64,000 nucleotides of DNA, taken from assembly GCF_019646055.1 (NCBI RefSeq), contig NZ_JAESFE010000002.1:62001-126000 (forward strand). The letters run 5' to 3'. The stretch's first letter is position 1. The number at the start of each line of letters is the position of its first letter. Source of the stretch: Sodalis sp. CWE. GTDB taxonomy: Bacteria; Pseudomonadota; Gammaproteobacteria; Enterobacterales; Enterobacteriaceae. Positions 1 through 31,046 of this stretch are shown here, piece after piece. A model generated the notes under the pieces. The model did not search any database. It was not told the origin of the DNA and saw only the letters and a list, made by a program, of their open reading frames with translations. The position numbers were made by a program, and so were the translations under genes.

Positions 1-182
1 TGGAAGCAGTAGAAAGAAAAATGTTAATTTTTGTTCCAAATGAATTCAAGATAAGCTGTCATCATTGGTTTGTTTTGCATGGACGCTATACTTGTAGGGC
101 CTACAAACCGCGTTGCGATTCTTGCTTAATTGAAGATTTATGTGAATATAATCAAAAAAACAATAAAAAAGATGAGTTTTAG
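1..182 (+). CDS. nth: Endonuclease III, C-terminal part (5' end outside window)
   Basis: The last 59 residues of the DNA glycosylase/AP-lyase that removes oxidised pyrimidines in base excision repair. The frame opens at base 3 after two bases of a split codon and ends at the TAG at 180-182. The tail carries the [4Fe-4S] motif Cys-X6-Cys-X2-Cys-X5-Cys (C-RAYKPR-C-DS-C-LIEDL-C), preceded by CHHWFVLHGRYTC, which matches E. coli Nth closely. The catalytic helix-hairpin-helix and Lys/Asp residues lie outside the window. In E. coli nth is the last gene of the rsx operon and lies near tyrS, as here. The cluster would be supplied by the Suf system encoded further along. Confidence 0.93.
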   Translation, partial: EAVERKMLIFVPNEFKISCHHWFVLHGRYTCRAYKPRCDSCLIEDLCEYNQKNNKKDEF

Positions 183-194
183 CAAATTTGCTAA
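179..194. repeat. 16-nt perfect palindrome over the nth stop codon
   Basis: TTAGCAAATTTGCTAA is a perfect inverted repeat whose left arm contains the nth stop codon. It is followed by T-rich sequence, so it may act as a weak terminator, but the stem is AT-rich and has no loop of its own. Confidence 0.4.
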
Positions 195-346
195 TTAATT
201 TTCTTAGATTTAAGAAGGTCAACTATTTAACGTATCAATAATACATTTTTTTATTTAAAAAATCTCACTCTGAGAGAGATGGTACATGCTTAAATCTACT
301 TTTATTGTTTTTGATTAAAGTTGGAATTTTGTCTATCTAAACCTTC

Positions 347-1627
347 TTAAACCCAATTAAGAAGACAAAAATGCTTTTTTCCACGACGTATCAGTGTATA
401 TTTTTTGTAAAGTCTATCAGATTCTTCGAATATATAATTTTCTGAGATTTGTTTTTTTTCGTTAACCGAGATAGCGTTAGACCTTATTAAGGTACGTGCT
501 TGTTTTTGTGAAGGCGCAAGCTTTGCCGCTACCAGTGCAAGCTGTAAATTCATATCGTGTTTAAGTTTAACTGTCGGTATTCCGTCTTTTGCTAGTTGAA
601 TGAAATCGTTTTCAGTTAGATCTTTTAATGTTCCTAAAAATAAACTTTTAGTAATACGCTTCGCCGTTGTCAATCCATGATCACCATGCACAATACGAGT
701 TACTTCTTCTGCAAGAAGACGTTGAGCAAATAACGGTGTATCTTTATTATAATTTTTTTGCAAAAATTCATTGATTTCATCAGGGTGAAGAAAAGTAAAA
801 AATCTTAAAAAGCGGAATACGTCACTATCAGCAACATTAACCCAAAACTGATAAAATTTATAAGGACTGGTTTTAGTTGAATCTAGCCAAATAGTATCAT
901 TTTCAGTTTTTCCAAATTTAATACCATTCGATTTGGTGATCAGAGGAATCGTTAAGCCAAAGACTTTTTTATGGCATAATCGACGCGTTAAATTAATTCC
1001 AGAAGTAATGTTTCCCCATTGATCAGAACCACCAATTTGTAGTCTCACTCCATAATATTTGTTTAAATAAGCAAAATCGTAACTCTGCAGAAGGTTGTAT
1101 GAAAATTCAGTAAATGAAATTCCTATACCATCGCGATTAAGCCGATTTTTTATTACATCTTTATTAATCATTTGGTTAACAGAAAAATGTTTACCAACCT
1201 CTCGTAAAAATGAGATAACATTTATCGATCTGAACCAATTATAATTATTGATTATCATAACGTTTTTTTTATTGCAGCTAAAATCAAAAAACGTCAATAT
1301 CTGACGCTCAATTTTTTCTGTCCATTCTTGAATAATTTCGATACTATTAGTTTTACGTTTGCCAATTTTAAAACTAGGGTCTCCAATAAGACCGGTTGCA
1401 CCTCCAATTAATATAATTGGTTGATGCCCAGATAATTGAAAACGTTTCAAACATAATAACGGCATCAAATGTCCCAAGTGCAAACTATCTGCAGTAGGAT
1501 CAAAACCACAATACAATTTAATTGGTTTAACTGCTAATCTTTCAGATAAAAGTTTTTCGTTGGAAATTTGAACAATTATCTCACGGTTTTTTAATTCTTT
1601 TATTAAATTAATTTTAGTGTTTTTCAT
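347..1627 (-). CDS. tyrS: Tyrosyl-tRNA synthetase
   Basis: Class I aminoacyl-tRNA synthetase that charges tRNA-Tyr in the cytoplasm. The protein is 426 aa (E. coli 424). The HIGH signature is HLGH at residues 50-53, just after the tyrosine pocket [13 protein letters not shown]; the KMSKS-type loop is KFGKT near residue 240. The last ~70 residues form the S4-like tRNA-binding domain, containing the run [19 protein letters not shown]. The ATG start at 1627 gives full family length. It converges with nth, 164 bases away. The E. coli neighbours pdxY and pdxH are absent. It is essential and looks intact. Confidence 0.97.
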
Positions 1628-3247
1628 TAAAAAATTACTTAATGCGAAGTTTTCAAAAAGAAAATCAAAATAAATAGTACTTATTTAAATTCTAAATTAT
1701 AGAATGGTCCTTCTAGATTTCATCTAGGATTATGATGAATATAATTAAAAAAATGCAAGCTTACACTAAATTTGATAGTAATTATTTTCAATTCAATGGA
1801 TAACTTGTCGTATAAGGAATTGTACTCCATTCAAAAACTTTTTATATTTTACACTTGTTTTTTTAGAAACTAAAAAAATAAGCTCACTTTGAGTTTAAAT
1901 TAATTCTAAATTTAGAAGTTATTTTCAATATGCAGCTTATGATGACATAATCAAATTAATACGAAATAAAAATATTAATCTGACTTTTAAAAAAGTAAAA
2001 ACGTTATAATCATTACTGTTTGACTATTTTTAGTTCTTCTTTACCAAGAAGACACATGCCAAAATTTAATAAAAAGACATAATCTGTTTAAGTGTTTTAT
2101 CAAATCAACATCTAACTTACCATTTAATTTCTATCTAAAAATCAATGTCGATACGGATAACATCAAAAATATTTTATTCTAATATTAAACAAGTAAATTT
2201 TCATAAAGAACTATTAATAATACTTTATGATAATGAAGAACTAGCTGCTACTGATTGTAGTTATTACAATTTTCTATATTCATATCAATAAAAAATTGAT
2301 AGTCTAACTTGTATATATTTTATTAGAAGTAATTTTCTATTAAAAACTAAATTAATTGATACTTAATCAAATAAAAATAAAGAACTTTAACTCAAGCAAT
2401 TTTTTATAAAAAAAGTTGTATAATTATAATTTTTATTTTCCTAATCTTTAGAGTTTATTAAAAATTAAAATTTTGATTTGGAATAACGTTACTTTTATTA
2501 TAAATAAGCAAGAGCGCCATCTTCTATTTCCAAATTATAACTTATTTTTAACTATAAAAATTTTCTAATTTTTAATGAAGTTTTAACAGTAAAAAATAAT
2601 TTCATTATGAATATCACAGATAATGTTACTTACTTCTTTTAAGAAAGAATTCATTATACTTGATTAAAATCAATTCAGTTTAATCTTTATTAATAAATAA
2701 ATTCATTAATTAAATTCTTATTTAAAGAAACTCATACACGATCCTATAAAAATTATGTGATATCAATAATTATTATTAATTGAACTACAGCTATTTAAGT
2801 AGAATATAATTAAGATCTAATTTATTTTAGTAAGTTAATTTAATTCTGTAATAAAATTGCTAGTGATAGGACAAACTTAATATTAAAAATATGTAATGTT
2901 CGCTATTCTAAATAGAATATAGATAGATTTTAAATTCAATCATTAAAAATAGTTAGATATTTTTTTATGGCTTATTATGAATAAGATCGGTAATATAATT
3001 ATTATTAAATAATAGTTTCTTTTAAGATGAAGAATTAAAAACATAATTCAAATTTTTAATTAAAAACTTTTTAAAAAGTTGTTTTAAAGCAGAAATTAAA
3101 GATTTTATTTCTAATTGATTACCTATAAGATAATGATAATTTTTCAATAAAAACAAAAAATTATTTTCTTCATAGAAGAAATTAATAAATACATTACATA
3201 AATGAACATTTATAATAATTTCATGAAAATATTTATAGAGTATAAAT
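1628..3247. other. Gene-less AT-rich spacer, 1.6 kb
   Basis: No reading frame resembling a known protein and no RNA gene seen. It lies upstream of tyrS, so the tyrS promoter should be near 1640-1720. E. coli has pdxH beside tyrS; no trace of it could be recognised. Confidence 0.6.
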
Positions 3248-3505
3248 TTACCTGTAATCTTTTGATAAGCAACCCCGTGAAGCTAAAGTTGATGAATTTA
3301 TTTTAATACAGTCGGTAGGACAAGGAGTTATGCAAAGCTTACAACCAGTACATAAACTGCTCACTACAGTATGTACTGTATGTTTACTTCCAATAATTGC
3401 ATCTACTGGACAAACTTGAGAACATTTAGCGCATCCAATACAATTGTCCTCATCTATCCATGCTACTTCAGCAGTTGAGGAAAAAAAAGTGGTCTGAATT
3501 TCCAT
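3248..3505 (-). CDS. rsxB: Truncated RsxB-like protein: stand-alone 2[4Fe-4S] ferredoxin
   Basis: An 85-aa protein that matches only the C-terminal ferredoxin half of RsxB/RnfB, the electron-transfer subunit of the Rsx (Rnf) membrane complex. Two clusters are visible: [12 protein letters not shown] and [12 protein letters not shown], each Cys-X2-Cys-X2-Cys-X3-Cys-Pro. Flanking runs ([26 protein letters not shown]) follow E. coli RsxB almost without gaps. The N-terminal membrane anchor and the first Cys-rich Fe-S domain (about 105 aa in RsxB) are missing. A TGA lies in frame seven codons upstream of the ATG, so the short form is not a start-site artefact. All eight ligand cysteines are kept, suggesting selection on a soluble ferredoxin. 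No other rsx gene is in the window. It could also be a pseudogene frozen at this stage. Confidence 0.8.
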
Positions 3506-4475
3506 TATATCAATTTAGCTTTTCTTCAAAAAGAAAATAAACCTGAAAAATGAGCATTTTTAAAATTATTTATTTTTCTACCACAAAGCATGTGATGTGC
3601 TTTTTAATTTAATAAATCAATAGCTTTCAAAAAAATAAAACGAAAAAAGTAATATATTGAAACTTGCTTGCTAGCAAGCAATAATTTCTTTCTAAAAGAA
3701 TTCTGATAATAATGTTTGAGCTTTAATACTTTAAATCAAAGATCCAAACTATTTTTATTATAGCAATATCATAATTAACGATTTATTATTCGGAATAATA
3801 AGCAAATAAAAAAATAATGGTTCATTGAAAATGAACACACAAGTATAAAAAATATCCTATTTGTAGTAAAATAGAATTTTTTTCTTTCTTAAAAAGAATC
3901 TCCTTAATTATTCATTGAATCGTGGCTAACTGATATACTTCATAATCTTTCTAAAAAAAATTTCTAAGAAAATTAAAAGAATTTTTTTATGCTGTATCGC
4001 TAATTAACCAAGAAATATATTTATGAATATAAAATGAAATTTAGTAGAAAAATTTCTTCGTTTTAGAACGTTTAATATTTAAAAAGTTTTCTAGAAAAAT
4101 AATTTTATTGTTTTTAAACTTTAATATAGCAATAACATTATTTATTGCATAAAGTTGATTAGTTAAAAAAAATAAAGTGAGTTGAAAAAAAATAATTAAT
4201 CTCTTTTTTTTAATTAAAAATTGAATTTGAATATATTAATTGTTGTCAACTTATTCTATTTAAATAGCAAAGAAGAAAGCGAAAGGCAGAATCGTATTCT
4301 TTATGCAGAAAAATTTTATTACATTTTTTTAAAAATTAAAAAATTTTAAATAAAGCGCAAAATATAGACGGCATTATATTTTAAATTTACTTGATTTATA
4401 TCAAATTATGTAAATTAATTACGATTAACTAACTTGTTACTTGTAAGCAACATAGGCAACAGGATAAATTTCTTT
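3506..4475. other. Gene-less spacer with two palindromes, about 1 kb
   Basis: Lies between the rsxB fragment and ribE. It is where the missing 5' half of rsxB would have been, but nothing recognisable remains. It holds the palindromes at 3664-3681 and 3882-3898; the latter has a TTCTT arm facing AAGAA and belongs to the dispersed pyrimidine/purine family. Confidence 0.55.
3664..3681. repeat. 18-nt perfect palindrome TTGCTTGCT/AGCAAGCAA
   Basis: Nine-base arms with no mismatch and no loop. A related core (CTTGCTAGCAAAG) recurs near 41388, upstream of gapA. Function unknown. Confidence 0.6.
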
Positions 4476-5093
4476 CTAAGTAAAAGTATGTGATGTCAGA
4501 ATTCTTTCTGTAGTATCAACAATTGCTTTTGTTTGCGCGTCAATCTCGATATTTACTTTATCGTTAATTTTCCTTTTTCCAAGTGTAGTACGTGATAACG
4601 TTTCAGGTATTACGTGTACAAGAAAAGAATTACTAAACACACTTCCAACAGTGAGGCTAATACCATCAACTCCGATATAACCTTTATATAAAATATATTT
4701 CATTAATGCTTGATCTGTTATAGAAAACAACATTTGGCAACATGTTTCTAAATGCAAGATCTTATTTATTTTCGCTGTACATGTAATATGTCCAGACATA
4801 AGATGACCACCAACTTCTGTTTGTAAACTAACTGCTCGTTCTATATTTACTTCATCTCCAATAGAAAGTTCCCCTAGATTAGTTAAATTAATTGTTTCCT
4901 GTATTAAATCAAAGCAGATAATATTATCTGAAATTTTAGTTACCGTTAAACAACAACCGTTATGAGCTACTGAAGCACCGACGATCAAATTCGATAGTAA
5001 CGATCTCGGAAATTTAACAAAATGCGTTTGATAATGATTTTTTTTATCAATAAAGACGATAGGTGCAATGGCCTGAACGATTCCTGTAAACAT
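4476..5093 (-). CDS. ribE: Riboflavin synthase alpha chain
   Basis: Catalyses the last step of riboflavin synthesis, dismutation of two 6,7-dimethyl-8-ribityllumazines (the gene is ribC in E. coli). The 205 aa (E. coli 213) consist of two tandem lumazine-binding barrels. The hallmark N-terminus MFTGIVQ is intact. The first barrel ends near residue 95 (VGGHLMSGHITCTAKI) and the second carries YIGVDGISLTVG and VHVIPETLSRTTLG. With ribA at 18 kb, two steps of the pathway are in this window; lumazine synthase and ribB/ribD would lie elsewhere. No FMN riboswitch is visible upstream. It stands alone between large spacers. Confidence 0.96.
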   Translation of the reverse strand: MFTGIVQAIAPIVFIDKKNHYQTHFVKFPRSLLSNLIVGASVAHNGCCLTVTKISDNIICFDLIQETINLTNLGELSIGDEVNIERAVSLQTEVGGHLMSGHITCTAKINKILHLETCCQMLFSITDQALMKYILYKGYIGVDGISLTVGSVFSNSFLVHVIPETLSRTTLGKRKINDKVNIEIDAQTKAIVDTTERILTSHTFT

Positions 5094-5903
5094 TTTATTT
5101 TATCTAAATTATTAAAATAAGAGGTAATTTCATTAACTTTTTTATATTATACATCTTATCATTTTATTTAAAAAAGTTTAAAAATACCTTTAAAGAAATT
5201 TTTTACGGATATTTTTGGTAAAAATCATATTTAAAATTTTTTAAATTCAAATAATTAAAATTATCATAACGATATGACAATCTTTTTATTCATCATTTTT
5301 AATCAAAATCGGGATTTTCCTATTTTAATTTCTCTTTTCTTTACTCAATTTTGCATTAAATCGATAGTTCTTGCGAACAAGAAACTAAACATCTATCTTA
5401 TGGGTTTATAGTATTGTTCAAAAGTATTGCTTAAATTTAAATTTATCATCTTTTTGTAGTAAAGCCTATATAAGGATTGTTTTATCTTTAATTTTTTATA
5501 AAAGTTAGTTAAGCTCACGAAAAATAAATTATTTTAATCCAATAGAATTAAAATGTGCCAAATTATATATTTATATTTCTCAATGAATAATGCTTCCCAA
5601 GCGAAATGGAATACATAATACAAATTATCAATCAAATAATAAATATTCTTAAAAATTTTACATAAGGTGTTTGTTAGCAACAAACTTTGATTGATATACG
5701 CACGAACAAAGATTAATTTAATTTTTAATGAAAATTGTCCTTGAAAAGATACATTTATCTTGCAAAAATTAACCTAGTTCATTAAAATTCTATATTGTAT
5801 TCATCCACAAAAAATTTTTATCGCTACTAAGAAATAGAAAAAATGTATTTTGCAAACAAAATTTTTATCGATCATACAATTAAGGGTAGAAATTATTGTT
5901 TTT
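5094..5903. other. Spacer between ribE and tRNA-Val, about 0.8 kb
   Basis: No gene seen; E. coli has mdtK here. It contains a hairpin with 7-bp arms at 5669-5685 (GTTTGTT, loop AGC, AACAAAC) and, at its right end, the putative tRNA promoter. Confidence 0.55.
5850..5880 (+). promoter_or_regulatory. Putative promoter of tRNA-Val
   Basis: A -10-like TACAAT (5875-5880) lies 23 bases before the tRNA. A possible -35 TTGCAA (5850-5855) is 19 bases upstream, slightly longer than ideal. Assigned by position and similarity only. Confidence 0.35.
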
Positions 5904-5977
5904 GCGTCCGTAGCTCAGTTGGTTAGAGCACCGCCTTGACGTGGCGGTGGTCAGTGGTTCGAATCCACTCGGACGCA
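5904..5977 (+). tRNA. tRNA-Val, anticodon GAC
   Basis: A full cloverleaf: acceptor GCGTCCG/CGGACGC, D stem GCTC/GAGC, anticodon stem CCGCC/GGCGG enclosing TTGACGT (anticodon GAC), T stem AGTGG/CCACT, discriminator A at 5977. The next three bases are TCA, so CCA is not encoded and must be added by tRNA nucleotidyltransferase. E. coli carries a tandem pair (valV, valW) at the corresponding place between ribC and lpp; only one copy remains here. Confidence 0.97.
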
Positions 5978-6325
5978 TCAGTCTTCTATTTTCTATTTTA
6001 AAGTAGTCCAAATTTTCAGTCAAAAAATTATAGATTTTTTATCTAAAAATTCAATTTCAGCATTACCTAATAAAGAGAAATATTGGTATTCTATTTAGTG
6101 AAGTAAATTAACTAAAAAGAATTAATTTTCCTTAAAAATTAAGTCATCCTTTAGTTTATTTTTATAAATTATATTCATAATTTATGAAATGTATATATAC
6201 GTAAGGATTTAATGTAAAACAACCTAGCAAGCTTGATTTTTATTATCAAATCATTATAAAATCATTGAAAAGGAAATTTTCTAATATAATTTTAGAAATT
6301 AATTTATTGAAGAGGTACTTAATTA
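5978..6325. other. Spacer tRNA-Val to lpp
   Basis: 348 bases with no gene; the right part is the lpp promoter and leader. Confidence 0.6.
6233..6260 (+). promoter_or_regulatory. Candidate lpp promoter
   Basis: TTGATT (6233-6238), a 16-base spacer and TATAAA (6255-6260) form a plausible sigma-70 promoter and would give a leader of about 60 bases. A second -10-like TATAAT at 6285-6290 would give a 30-base leader, nearer to that of E. coli lpp, but its upstream TTGAAA is only 14 bases away. Confidence 0.35.
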
Positions 6326-6565
6326 ATGAATCACACTAAATTAGCACTAGGAACAGTAGTAACGCTTTGCTCGATTCTGCTGATTGGTTGTTCCAATAGT
6401 TCTAAAGTTGATCAACTATTCTCTGACGTTCAGACTTTGAATGCTAAAACTGATCAAATGAATAATGATATAAATGCTCTTCGTTCAGATGTACAATCTG
6501 CCAAAGATCACGCTACTCGAGCTAATCAACGTTTGGACAACCAGGTAGCATCTTATCGAAAATAG
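6326..6565 (+). CDS. lpp: Major outer-membrane (Braun) lipoprotein
   Basis: Tethers the outer membrane to peptidoglycan. The 79-aa precursor has a lipoprotein signal peptide ending in the lipobox LIGC, with the lipidated Cys at 22. It continues with [10 protein letters not shown] and heptad repeats that form the trimeric coiled coil, and ends in YRK, whose Lys is the residue joined to peptidoglycan. Everything matches E. coli Lpp (78 aa). A ribosome-binding site GAAGAGG lies upstream of the ATG. A strong hairpin terminator follows. Retention implies an intact outer membrane and peptidoglycan with L,D-transpeptidase activity. Confidence 0.97.
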
Positions 6566-6598
6566 AATAGAAAATAAGAAGTTTTGCTTTGCTTTTTT

Positions 6599-6637
6599 GG
6601 AAACGGGCGCGAAGTGAGTGCTCGTTTCCTTGTTTTC
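6599..6637 (+). terminator. Rho-independent terminator of lpp
   Basis: Ten-base-pair stem GGAAACGGGC (6599-6608) with GCTCGTTTCC (6620-6629), one G-T pair, an 11-base loop, then TTGTTTTC. It is the most GC-rich hairpin in the left part of the window and sits 34 bases after the lpp stop, in the convergent gap with sufE. Confidence 0.8.
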
Positions 6638-6657
6638 ATAAGTCAGTGAAAAGAAAA

Positions 6658-7077
6658 TCAACTCTGATGAGTAGAAATCATGCTGCGAATGCTTTCTACT
6701 ATAGCTCCTAATCCTTGCGAGCGAGACGGAGTTAAATGTTGCGTCAGCTTTAGTGAATCAAAAAAAGGTTTTACATTATAAGAAATGATTTCTTCTGACG
6801 TAAGATCATGATAAATGGAAAATACTATAGCGATTAATCCTTTTGTAATAGAAGCATTGCTGTCACCATATAATTTTACTTTACCATTCTTTTCTATTTT
6901 TACAACAATCCATGTCTGACTTTGGCAGCCAGATATTAAGTTTTTTGAGTTTCGCATGCTTTCTTGAAAAGGTAACAAGCATTTGCCAAGTTCTATAATA
7001 TAGAGATATTTTTCTTCCCAACTGTTGCAATGAGAAAAATTCAACAAAAGTCTTTCTTTGCTTGGTAACTGTTTCAT
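6658..7077 (-). CDS. sufE: SufE, cysteine desulfurase activator and sulfur acceptor
   Basis: Accepts persulfide from SufS and passes it to SufB in the SufBCD scaffold. The 139 aa are typical (E. coli 138). The active Cys is C51 in SGCQSQTW, the same number as in E. coli, and the C-terminal motif SRSQGLGAIVESIRSM is present. It is the last gene of the sufABCDSE operon, starting 33 bases after the sufS stop. It converges with lpp and the terminator between them. Confidence 0.96.
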   Translation of the reverse strand: MKQLPSKERLLLNFSHCNSWEEKYLYIIELGKCLLPFQESMRNSKNLISGCQSQTWIVVKIEKNGKVKLYGDSNASITKGLIAIVFSIYHDLTSEEIISYNVKPFFDSLKLTQHLTPSRSQGLGAIVESIRSMISTHQS

Positions 7078-7110
7078 TTTTATACAATTTTTTTGTGAGC
7101 TTTTTATTTA

Positions 7111-8343
7111 TTATCCTAATAACTGCTGAACTCGATTTAGACCAATTGCTAATTGATCAATATCATTATGATCAGAATACATTGCAATAGAAGCGCGACA
7201 CATATTTGTTACTTGAAAGTAGGTTATTAACGGCATAGCACAATGATGTCCAGTTCGAATAGCAATACCGCTTTGGTCAAGAAAGCTACCTACGTCATAC
7301 GCATGGTGTTTTCCTAAATTAAATGCTACAATGCCAATGCGGTTATCAGAATTACATGGTCCATATATGACCATGTTTGGAATTTGCTGCAACATTTCGA
7401 GCATATATTCCGTTATTTGTTTCTCATAAATCTGAATATTTTCTAGTCCAGTTTTTTCAATATATGTGATCGCAGATCCTAATCCCATTATTCCAGCAAT
7501 GTGTGGAGTGCCTGCTTCAAAACGCCAAGGAACTTCATTGAAGGTAGTTTCTTCAGTAAAACTTACAATACGGATCATTGAACCACCACCTTCCCATGGC
7601 GGCATGGATTCTAAAATTGCTTCTTTTGCATAGAGTATTCCAATACCGGTAGGACCGTAAATCTTATGACCTGAAAACACATAAAAATCACAATCAAGTG
7701 CTTGTACGTCTACTTTTTTGTGCGTAATGGCTTGAGCACCATCAACTAACACCATTGCATTACAGGATTTACGTATTTGGTCAATCAACTCTAGTAGAGG
7801 GTTAACAGTACCAAGTACATTAGAAGCCTGAGTAACAGCAAATAAACGAGTCCGTTCATCAATTAATGTTGGCAGTAAACTGATATTAAGTGTACCGTCT
7901 GGTAATAATGGCAAAAAACGTAAATTTAGTTTTTTTTCTTTAGCCAGGATTTGCCATGGAACAATATTAGCATGATGCTCCATTTGTGAAATAATGACAT
8001 TATCTCCTGATTTAAGATAATGTCGTCCCCAACTATTAGCTACTAAATTAATAGATTCAGTAGCTCCTTTTGTAAATACGATTTCCTTGGATGAAGTAGC
8101 ATGAATAAAATTCGCAACTTTCTGACGCACATTTTCCATATGAGCTGTAGCTGTGTTGCTTAATGTATGCACACCTCGATGTACCGTAGCATATTCTTTA
8201 CGATAAAAATCTCTTTCACGATTAATAACAACATTAGGTTTTTGCGTGCTTGATGCGTTGTCAAGATAAATTAACGGTTTTTTATTTATTTGTTGCGTTA
8301 GAATTGGGAAGTCAGATCGAATCTGAATGATAGGATAAGTCAC
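7111..8343 (-). CDS. sufS: SufS cysteine desulfurase
   Basis: PLP enzyme that takes sulfur from L-cysteine for Fe-S cluster assembly. It is 410 aa (E. coli 406). The Schiff-base Lys lies in [13 protein letters not shown] near residue 230 and the catalytic persulfide Cys is C368 in [10 protein letters not shown]. The PLP-site runs [13 protein letters not shown] and VDGAQA are intact. The start is GTG at 8343, twelve bases after the sufD stop, with a GGGAG ribosome site, and the product begins [13 protein letters not shown] like family members. It partners SufE, encoded next. Confidence 0.96.
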
Positions 8344-29138: not shown

Positions 29139-31046
29139 TTAGAGTTCCTTCATCGGCTTATAACAAGCGCGTAAGCGTTGATCACCAAAGTGATCTATCG
29201 GAGGAAATGTAATGGTACAAATATTCATTGAGTAACGACATCGCGGTTGAAAAGGACAGCCTTTAGGTAAATGAAATAAATTAGGTGGGTCACCAGGAAT
29301 AGTAGTTAAATTAATATTATTTTCTACATCTAGACGCGGTACTGCTGATAATAAACCAATGGAGTAGGGATGACTTGGATGATAAAATACGTCGCGTGCT
29401 TTTCCGTATTCCATAATGTGTCCGGCATACATTACCAGTAATCGATCACAAATGCCGGCTACGATACCGAGATCGTGAGTAATCATTATAATGGTAGTAT
29501 TAAATTTAGATTTAATTTCTTTGAGTAAACTCATAATTTGAGCTTGTACTGTTACATCTAACGCTGTGGTAGGTTCGTCAGCAATAAGTAATTTTGGACG
29601 ACATAATAATGCCATGGCGATCATTATACGTTGGCGCATGCCTCCTGATAGCTCATGAGGATACATATACATTCGTTTATTTGATTCAGATATTTTTACC
29701 GCGTTTAGCATACGTACAGATTCATCAAAAGCTTCATGTTTATTGATTTGTTTATGCAACCGCAGCACCTCTATTAACTGATCGCCTATACGCATATATG
29801 GATTTAAGGAGGTCATAGGGTCTTGAAAAATCATTGAAATTTTTTTGGAACGAATTTTATTTAAATATTTTTCCGGTAAATTAAGAATTTCATGACCATC
29901 AAACTTAGCACTACCACTAATACAGCCATTAGTTGCCAATAATCCCATCAAAGCAAAAGCTATTTGAGATTTTCCAGAACCAGATTCGCCGACTATTCCG
30001 ATAGTTTCACCAGCATTAATAGAAAAACTTAAGTTATTAACCGCAGTTAATATTTTATTTTGAATGAAAAATGTAACATGTAAATTATTTACATCTAGCA
30101 GTATCGGAGGAGCGATATCTGCTGGTATTTTTATGTTTTTTCTAAAAGTTTCACTCATTTTTATTAAGATATCTTCTTCTTTTAGATTAATCGCGTTGCG
30201 TAATCCTTCACCAATGAAATTAAAACAAAGTAATGTTGTTACTAAAAAAATAGTTGGAAAGATTAACAACCATGGAAATTCTTCCATAGAATTTACACCA
30301 TCGCTAAGTAATGATCCCCAACTTGGAAGTGGTTCCTGAACACCTAAACCTAAAAAACTTAAAAAAGACTCAAATAAAATCATGTTAGGAGCTAAGAGTG
30401 AGGCCTGCACTATCACTAGACCAAGTAAATTTGGCACAATATAGCGTAGGAGAATATTTCTAGTAGATACACCATTGATAATAGCTGCCTCAACGAATTC
30501 TTTACGCTTCAAACTTAATGTTTGGCCTCGCACAATACGAGCCATATCTAGCCAAGAAACTAACCCAATAGCCAAAAAAATTAAAAGAATATTCTTCCCA
30601 AGAAAAGTTATTAGCAAAATAACAAAAATTATGAAAGGAAACGAGTTTAAAATTTCTAGAAATCGCATCATCATAGAATCAATTCTACCACCGAGATAAC
30701 CAGATAAAGCTCCGTAGAATGTGCCTACTATTACCGCTATTACTGCAGAAAAAATTCCAATTAAAATAGAAATACGTCCACCAATTGCAATTCGTACTAA
30801 TAAATCTCGTCCAAACAAATCAGTGCCAAAGTAATGCTGAGAAACAATGCTTGGCGCGTTAGATGTCATACACCAATCAGTGTCGTCATAACGAAACATG
30901 GAAAACATTGGAACCAATATGACAAACAAAATTATCAATAATAAGATCAGTAAGCTTGTTAATGAAATTTTATTTTGAATAAAACGCTTTCCAGTTCTTT
31001 CTAAGAGACTACGGGTTTTTCTTATCACCTTAGATTTCTCTAGCAC
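29139..31046 (-). CDS. oppCD: OppC-OppD fusion: permease joined to ATPase in one frame
   Basis: One 635-aa frame covers two proteins that are separate in E. coli. Residues 1-296 are OppC, the inner-membrane permease, with [15 protein letters not shown], the EAA loop [12 protein letters not shown] and [20 protein letters not shown]. Residues 297-635 are complete OppD: Walker [11 protein letters not shown]-loop [12 protein letters not shown], signature LSGGMRQR, Walker [18 protein letters not shown], and the Cys-rich tail GCPFQPRC. The OppD start Met is still there in frame (ATG at 30158-30156). In the next frame, just before it, stand two adjacent TAA codons, so one lost or gained base has removed the oppC stop. 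Both C- and N-termini at the joint are cytoplasmic, so a fused protein could work; independent initiation at the inner ATG is also possible. Start is GTG. Confidence 0.9.

Follow-up and report, generated by a model that had tools for sequence, protein, structure and literature searches.

A small gene in the window, by which we mean the whole 64,000-nucleotide stretch of Sodalis sp. CWE DNA that was analysed, encodes the C-terminal half of RsxB as a free-standing 2[4Fe-4S] ferredoxin (Table 1). The N-terminal half of RsxB and the membrane subunits RsxA and RsxE are gone from this genome, the same outcome was reached in at least three lineages, and the gene is under purifying selection in the two genera where this is measurable. 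We consider it probable that the rsxABCDGE operon was lost in genome reduction and that the 2[4Fe-4S] module of RsxB was retained as a small gene, the product of which would be a putative soluble electron carrier. That several bacteria with reduced, symbiont-like genomes gave up a membrane machine for electron transfer and kept one Fe-S piece of it suggests that the piece has a job of its own. By title and opening abstract we found no published description of such free-standing genes for the C-terminal part of RsxB, in a literature mostly outside subscription journals.

Table 1. Features at the left end of the window, in window coordinates.
Coordinates	Strand	Feature	Basis
1..182	+	3' end of nth, the gene for endonuclease III (215 aa overall, start in left flank), CX6CX2CX5C cluster motif kept	
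347..1627	-	tyrS, adjoining the ancestral rsx-nth block	
1628..3247	.	Spacer downstream of the gene (19% G+C); no remnant of rsxC/D/G/E found	tblastn, composition
3248..3505	-	Free-standing RsxB-C ferredoxin gene, 85 aa	ORF, profile matches, constraint on equivalents
3302..3463	-	Fer4_21 2[4Fe-4S] module, residues 15-68, eight cysteines	Profile match and motif
3506..4475	.	Spacer upstream of the gene (20% G+C); no remnant of the RsxB N-terminal part found	tblastn, composition
3515..3517	-	TAA in frame, three codons before the ATG; a longer frame cannot be read through	Sequence
4476..5093	-	ribE (riboflavin synthase), first gene upstream of the ferredoxin gene	

The frame is intact from ATG to stop over 85 codons, within an open frame of 88 codons. 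In profile searches its residues 11-73 matched positions 104-166 of the 190-position RnfB profile TIGR01944 (E = 2.1e-28; 99.2 bits, above the cut-off of 68.7), which marks it as an RnfB-type C-terminal 2[4Fe-4S] module, and the Fer4_21 module matched with an E-value of 1.5e-18, both well outside what chance would give; the full-length RsxB equivalog NF003475 scored only 97.9 bits against its cut-off of 203. These matches bear out the preliminary description, which had read the gene as a free-standing ferredoxin derived from the C-terminal half of RsxB. All eight cluster cysteines are kept, as it had also claimed, in two CX2CX2CX3C motifs with the 41-residue spacing retained, and the small frame has no other domain, which is the form of a free-standing 2[4Fe-4S] ferredoxin. 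Its statements that the membrane anchor and first Fe-S domain are missing and that an in-frame stop lies just upstream were equally accurate: the frame begins 14 residues before the Fer4_21 module, no N-terminal membrane helix is seen by eye, and the TAA is in frame, 9 bases upstream of the ATG. This stop closes the frame, so the ferredoxin is not the tail of some larger product.

Composition by codon position (G+C of 0.37, 0.51 and 0.21 in the frame, against 0.19-0.20 in the flanks) is what one would look for in a coding frame when the genome is AT-biased. No promoter stands out between positions 3000 and 3900 (7 sites, 7.2 expected), and by eye there is no strong ribosome-binding site upstream of the ATG. 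Among solved structures the top scores went to repeat-rich polyferredoxins (FwdF, E = 2.3e-21), and the best RnfB chain was 8ahx_B (E = 1.4e-13). An AlphaFold model of the ferredoxin was poor (mean pLDDT 49, 15 rows) and gave no support from structure. A DNA search of window positions 1-8000 in plasmid records returned nothing on the ferredoxin gene. Upstream of the gene, at 3664-3681, a perfectly palindromic stem-loop with a T-rich run behind it scores like a terminator for the + strand (1 found, 0.2 expected).

The ferredoxin frame is the sole RsxB-type match in the assembly, which has 797,418 bases in 2 contigs. PF04060, the first RsxB Fe-S domain, has no match in the whole 797 kb (it matches in 5 of 14 control genomes), and neither does PF02508, the profile for the Rnf-Nqr membrane subunits RnfA and RnfE. 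The genome thus holds no full-length rsxB elsewhere, an eventuality that the preliminary description had named as one that would undo its reading. With RsxA, B, C, D, G and E as tblastn queries (E up to 0.05) against window positions 1-8000 and 18 kb to the left, only the C-terminal RsxB piece was recovered; the lone RsxC match (E = 0.005) falls on the same ferredoxin. The earlier remark that the window has no other rsx gene therefore stands for window positions 1-8000, and genome-wide for RsxA and RsxE. Left of nth, where it had been suggested that a complete rsxABCDGE set might lie, we found rnt (-) and grxD (+) instead.

To see how far this arrangement recurs we scanned 392 genomes of the family (E up to 1e-12), and 301 of them have an RsxB-type match. 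Frame lengths are known for the best matches listed and for 22 genomes that were searched again (including G000 and the four genomes of genus g55). Among the matches listed, at least ten genomes in four genera have a short frame: the window's own genome, four in g55, one in g132 and four in g137. All ten keep the eight cysteines. The open frame has 88 codons in the window's genome, 79, 65, 83 and 94 in g55 (G054, G190, G271 and G338, all four genomes sampled), 80 in g132 (G235), and 118, 117, 119 and 112 in g137 (G136, G239, G310 and G369). A second g132 genome (G131) is implied in the sample, with no match among those listed. In other reduced genomes, for example G013, G063, G074, G176 and G193, the frame is full-length, at 179-196 codons. 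Fer4_21 without PF04060 is the pattern in the window frame and in the five of the other nine free-standing genes that were scanned; PF04060 is also unmatched in all four g55 genomes, and by tblastn no RsxB N-terminal domain was found in g132 or g137 in the surroundings of the gene, covered by stretches up to 20 kb long. The G235 gene (L170:9887-10057) has CNHN at the fourth cysteine where most relatives have CPVD or similar, so the cysteine is kept and the usual proline lost.

PF02508 is unmatched in nine of the ten short-frame genomes. Its only two matches, both in G235, adjoin a 412-codon Fer2/NAD-binding frame and by inference belong to Nqr. Fer4 modules often serve as subunits, and the apparent Nqr cluster of G235 would suit a module that had become part of another complex (Nqr, Nuo or another oxidoreductase) instead of a free carrier. 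However, the other nine genomes lack PF02508 and hence Nqr, and the free-standing genes have no conserved neighbour beyond the ancestral block, so we judge membership in another complex to be quite unlikely.

The short genes lie where the rsx operon used to be. In Citrobacter (L064) and Biostraticola (L041) an intact rsx operon stands just upstream of nth, near tyrS, and in the nine comparison genomes the short frame is beside nth or tyrS, which is the old rsx site. (The names given to neighbouring genes, here and in the comparison genomes, are presumptive.) In all four g137 genomes the ferredoxin gene is adjacent to nth, upstream and on the same strand, followed by tyrS, pdxH, rnt, grxD, ribE and suf; in the g132 genome G235 it lies between fumC and nth, on the same strand as nth; and in all four g55 genomes it adjoins tyrS, nth having gone from the site. 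At this g55 site beside tyrS (L166-L169), there are cysU/W/A-like genes upstream in G054, G190 and G338, and an EmrE-like gene in G054 and G338. The order in the window's genome is grxD (+), rnt (-), nth (+), tyrS (-), ferredoxin gene (-), ribE (-). Between tyrS and ribE, where genes are otherwise sparse and G+C is about 20%, lies the ferredoxin gene, on the far side of tyrS from nth, as first described. Judging from gene order, two nested inversions, first of the block from the ferredoxin gene to grxD and then of nth-tyrS alone, would turn the g137 order into this one and would explain that position. Farther along the window (29139-31046, - strand), a single 635-aa frame appears to combine a presumptive permease of OppC type with a presumptive ATPase of OppD type, and may be a fusion of genes in the opp operon.

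Proximity to nth might mean that the product is a dedicated redox or cluster-maintenance partner of Nth, itself a [4Fe-4S] enzyme, and not a general carrier. Besides the same-strand adjacency in g137 (4/4) and g132 (1/1), with nth as the next gene downstream of the module, the Nth cluster motif is kept in the window's genome, g137 and g132 (6/6), and a solitary RnfB-like gene lies directly upstream of nth in one record each of Acinetobacter baumannii (L319:5749-7233) and Legionella adelaidensis (L321:3276-4509). No other rnf gene is annotated near these solitary genes, in 12 kb and 7 kb respectively, and by title or abstract we found no literature linking rnfB with nth. In the window, tyrS lies between the two genes. 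Against a partnership, the g55 site is without nth and the Nth motif is absent from the 6-20 kb stretches there (4/4), and no nth occurs in the 4 kb around a Neisseria RnfB-like protein. Moreover, nth is simply the next gene in the operon, so adjacency may be inherited. A dedicated partnership with Nth is therefore unlikely in our view. A wider reading is that across many Proteobacteria the RsxB module serves a client independent of Rnf, possibly endonuclease III, and is kept alone for that client after the pump is lost. It draws on the company of nth and the module in the rsx operon, where a solitary rnfB is paired with nth, and in two of the four genera whose module is free-standing; we hold it to be rather doubtful, but if it were true, reduced genomes would reveal a second function of RsxB.

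To count the origins of the short gene we made a tree of RpoB and RpoC (2,745 columns and 24 rows in a careful search, with a quick tree of 31 rows, from 40 genomes). The ten short-frame genomes fall in three places, each with full-length RsxB relatives: the window's genome and g55 group with G119 (100/99), g132 groups with G008 and G063, G196 and G007 (100/99), and g137 groups with G013, G110, G074 and G193 (95/100). Since the lost half is not expected to return, this implies at least three truncations; the starred branches force at least three changes, and the tree itself needs four. On the quick 31-row tree, a single clade of all ten genomes is rejected (nominal P = 1.4e-7), as is a union of g55 and g137 (nominal P = 1.8e-74). 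A joint clade of the window's genome and g55 is acceptable (P = 0.63), and these two may share one truncation. A TyrS tree of nine rows, in which the short row L084 was dropped and G235 had no TyrS, did not reject one clade (P = 0.099); this single-gene tree was too weak and was replaced by RpoB and RpoC.

Could the short gene be a leftover of a decaying rsxB, a final stretch that merely happens to be open still? The loss of the operon, the long AT-rich spacers on both sides, the want of a convincing promoter and the several reduced relatives without any match would all fit a pseudogene remnant. Against it stand the retention of the same piece with all eight cysteines in ten of ten genomes, the codon-position composition given above, and the constraint on the equivalents. 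We calculated dN/dS within genera by the NG86 method on a 51-codon module in g55 and g137 (four genomes each; the window's genus and the g132 copy are represented by one genome each). The six g55 pairs have dN of 0.08-0.22 and dS of 0.50-1.00, the six g137 pairs have dN of 0.15-0.26 and dS of 0.85-2.5, and dN/dS is 0.08-0.28 in all 12 pairs. YN00 returned a value in 1 of the 12 pairs (dN 0.22, dS 0.69). In four non-overlapping pairs on separate branches, third positions hold 79 of the 136 differences (P = 2.9e-9). In the closest pair, G054 and G338, the module is identical at 150 of 174 bases (86%), while the flanks, at 82 of 126 and 57 of 93, are within the shuffle range (means 0.60 and 0.59) and so at background. 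The low dN/dS together with these background flanks shows that the module is maintained and is not debris, and for g55 and g137 we reject the pseudogene reading on these grounds. Accumulated stops or cysteine losses, which the preliminary description had said would reveal a pseudogene, are missing from the g55 and g137 equivalents, and the dN/dS check that it proposed gave the range above. Overall we regard a chance remnant as very improbable.

Because the window's genus is sampled by one genome, selection on the window's own gene was judged by comparison with other genera. Against full-length RsxB of seven relatives, the window frame has a third-position excess in all seven cases (P = 1.4e-7 to 0.0027), with dS saturated in five, and part of the window branch may predate the truncation. 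Against the four g55 genomes the excess has P values of 0.0008, 0.002, 0.004 and 0.063, and the g132 copy against seven full-length relatives gives P = 0.00014 to 0.0079. The proposal that gene reduction turned a complex subunit into a separate gene is thus well supported, the more so as the same outcome recurs in other genera.

Apart from the resetting of SoxR, the role of Rsx in bacteria is, to our knowledge, unsettled. If the pump is lost separately in several reductive lineages and each still keeps the same soluble module under selection, the module must serve something besides the pump. We propose that genome reduction removed the rsxABCDGE operon, and that the part of rsxB encoding the cytosolic, partner-facing 2[4Fe-4S] module was retained with a new start codon. 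The product would bind two [4Fe-4S] clusters, would probably be soluble, and may hand low-potential electrons to one or more proteins formerly served by RsxB. Given the protein family and the half that survived, a soluble electron carrier with the partner-facing half of RsxB is the most likely identity. A point against the carrier explanation is that many genomes do without the module, 91 of the 392 being unmatched at 1e-12. Reports on the Rnf complexes of Clostridium tetanomorphum and Acetobacterium woodii propose that the N-terminal Fe-S domain, which is mobile, moves to RnfA/E in the membrane, and place the probable binding site of soluble ferredoxin on the ferredoxin core behind that domain (PMC9588780, PMC11889175). 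Loss of an engine-facing half and survival of a client-facing half would fit these structures. E. coli RsxB is described as part of the SoxR-reducing system (PMC11729352). The smallest form, 62 residues in g55, would make a convenient bait for the client and suggests a minimal working unit of RnfB.

Several redox partners were considered. Flavodoxin-length frames are present in 24 of 24 genomes checked, so retention of the module is not explained by a missing flavodoxin. Replacement of a lost Isc-type ferredoxin is not general either, since Fer2 is unmatched in all four g137 genomes and matched in the window's genome and all four of g55. The window's genome, g132 and g137 (4/4) have an Fpr-like reductase, Fpr and Fre being told apart, presumably correctly, by E. 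coli sequences. Among the PF00175 frames of g55 none looks like Fpr; those frames look like Fre (4/4) and CysJ (3/4), the latter called from frame length and a PF00258 match. Fpr is thus rejected as the universal reductant, and the donor must differ or be unspecific; it probably differs between lineages, with Fpr possible in the window's genome, g132 and g137. All four g55 genomes (G054, G190, G271 and G338) keep flavodoxin, yet show no Fpr-like reductase.

Among known systems the free-standing genes most resemble RsxB/RnfB of the Rnf/Rsx complex (TIGR01944, NF003475): the matched part of the C-terminal 2[4Fe-4S] module is 54-73% identical at 19 named-record loci, and the genes of the comparison genomes stand at the rsx site before nth or tyrS. 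They differ in having no membrane helix, PF04060 or RsxA/E, and in their length of 62-119 codons versus about 190. With bacterial 2[4Fe-4S] ferredoxins they share size and the two CX2CX2CX3C motifs, but the sequence here is clearly RnfB-derived. The solitary RnfB-like proteins of Acinetobacter (263 aa), Legionella adelaidensis (202 aa) and Neisseria (279 aa) are similar in that the stretches shown have no other rnf gene (PLSDB annotation is incomplete, and Neisseria was read from ORFs). They provide a precedent, and the first two, which lie beside nth, make a link to Nth possible for the free-standing module. However, all three keep PF04060 together with Fer4_21, whereas the free-standing genes scanned have Fer4_21 only, and the free-standing genes are therefore a further reduced form.
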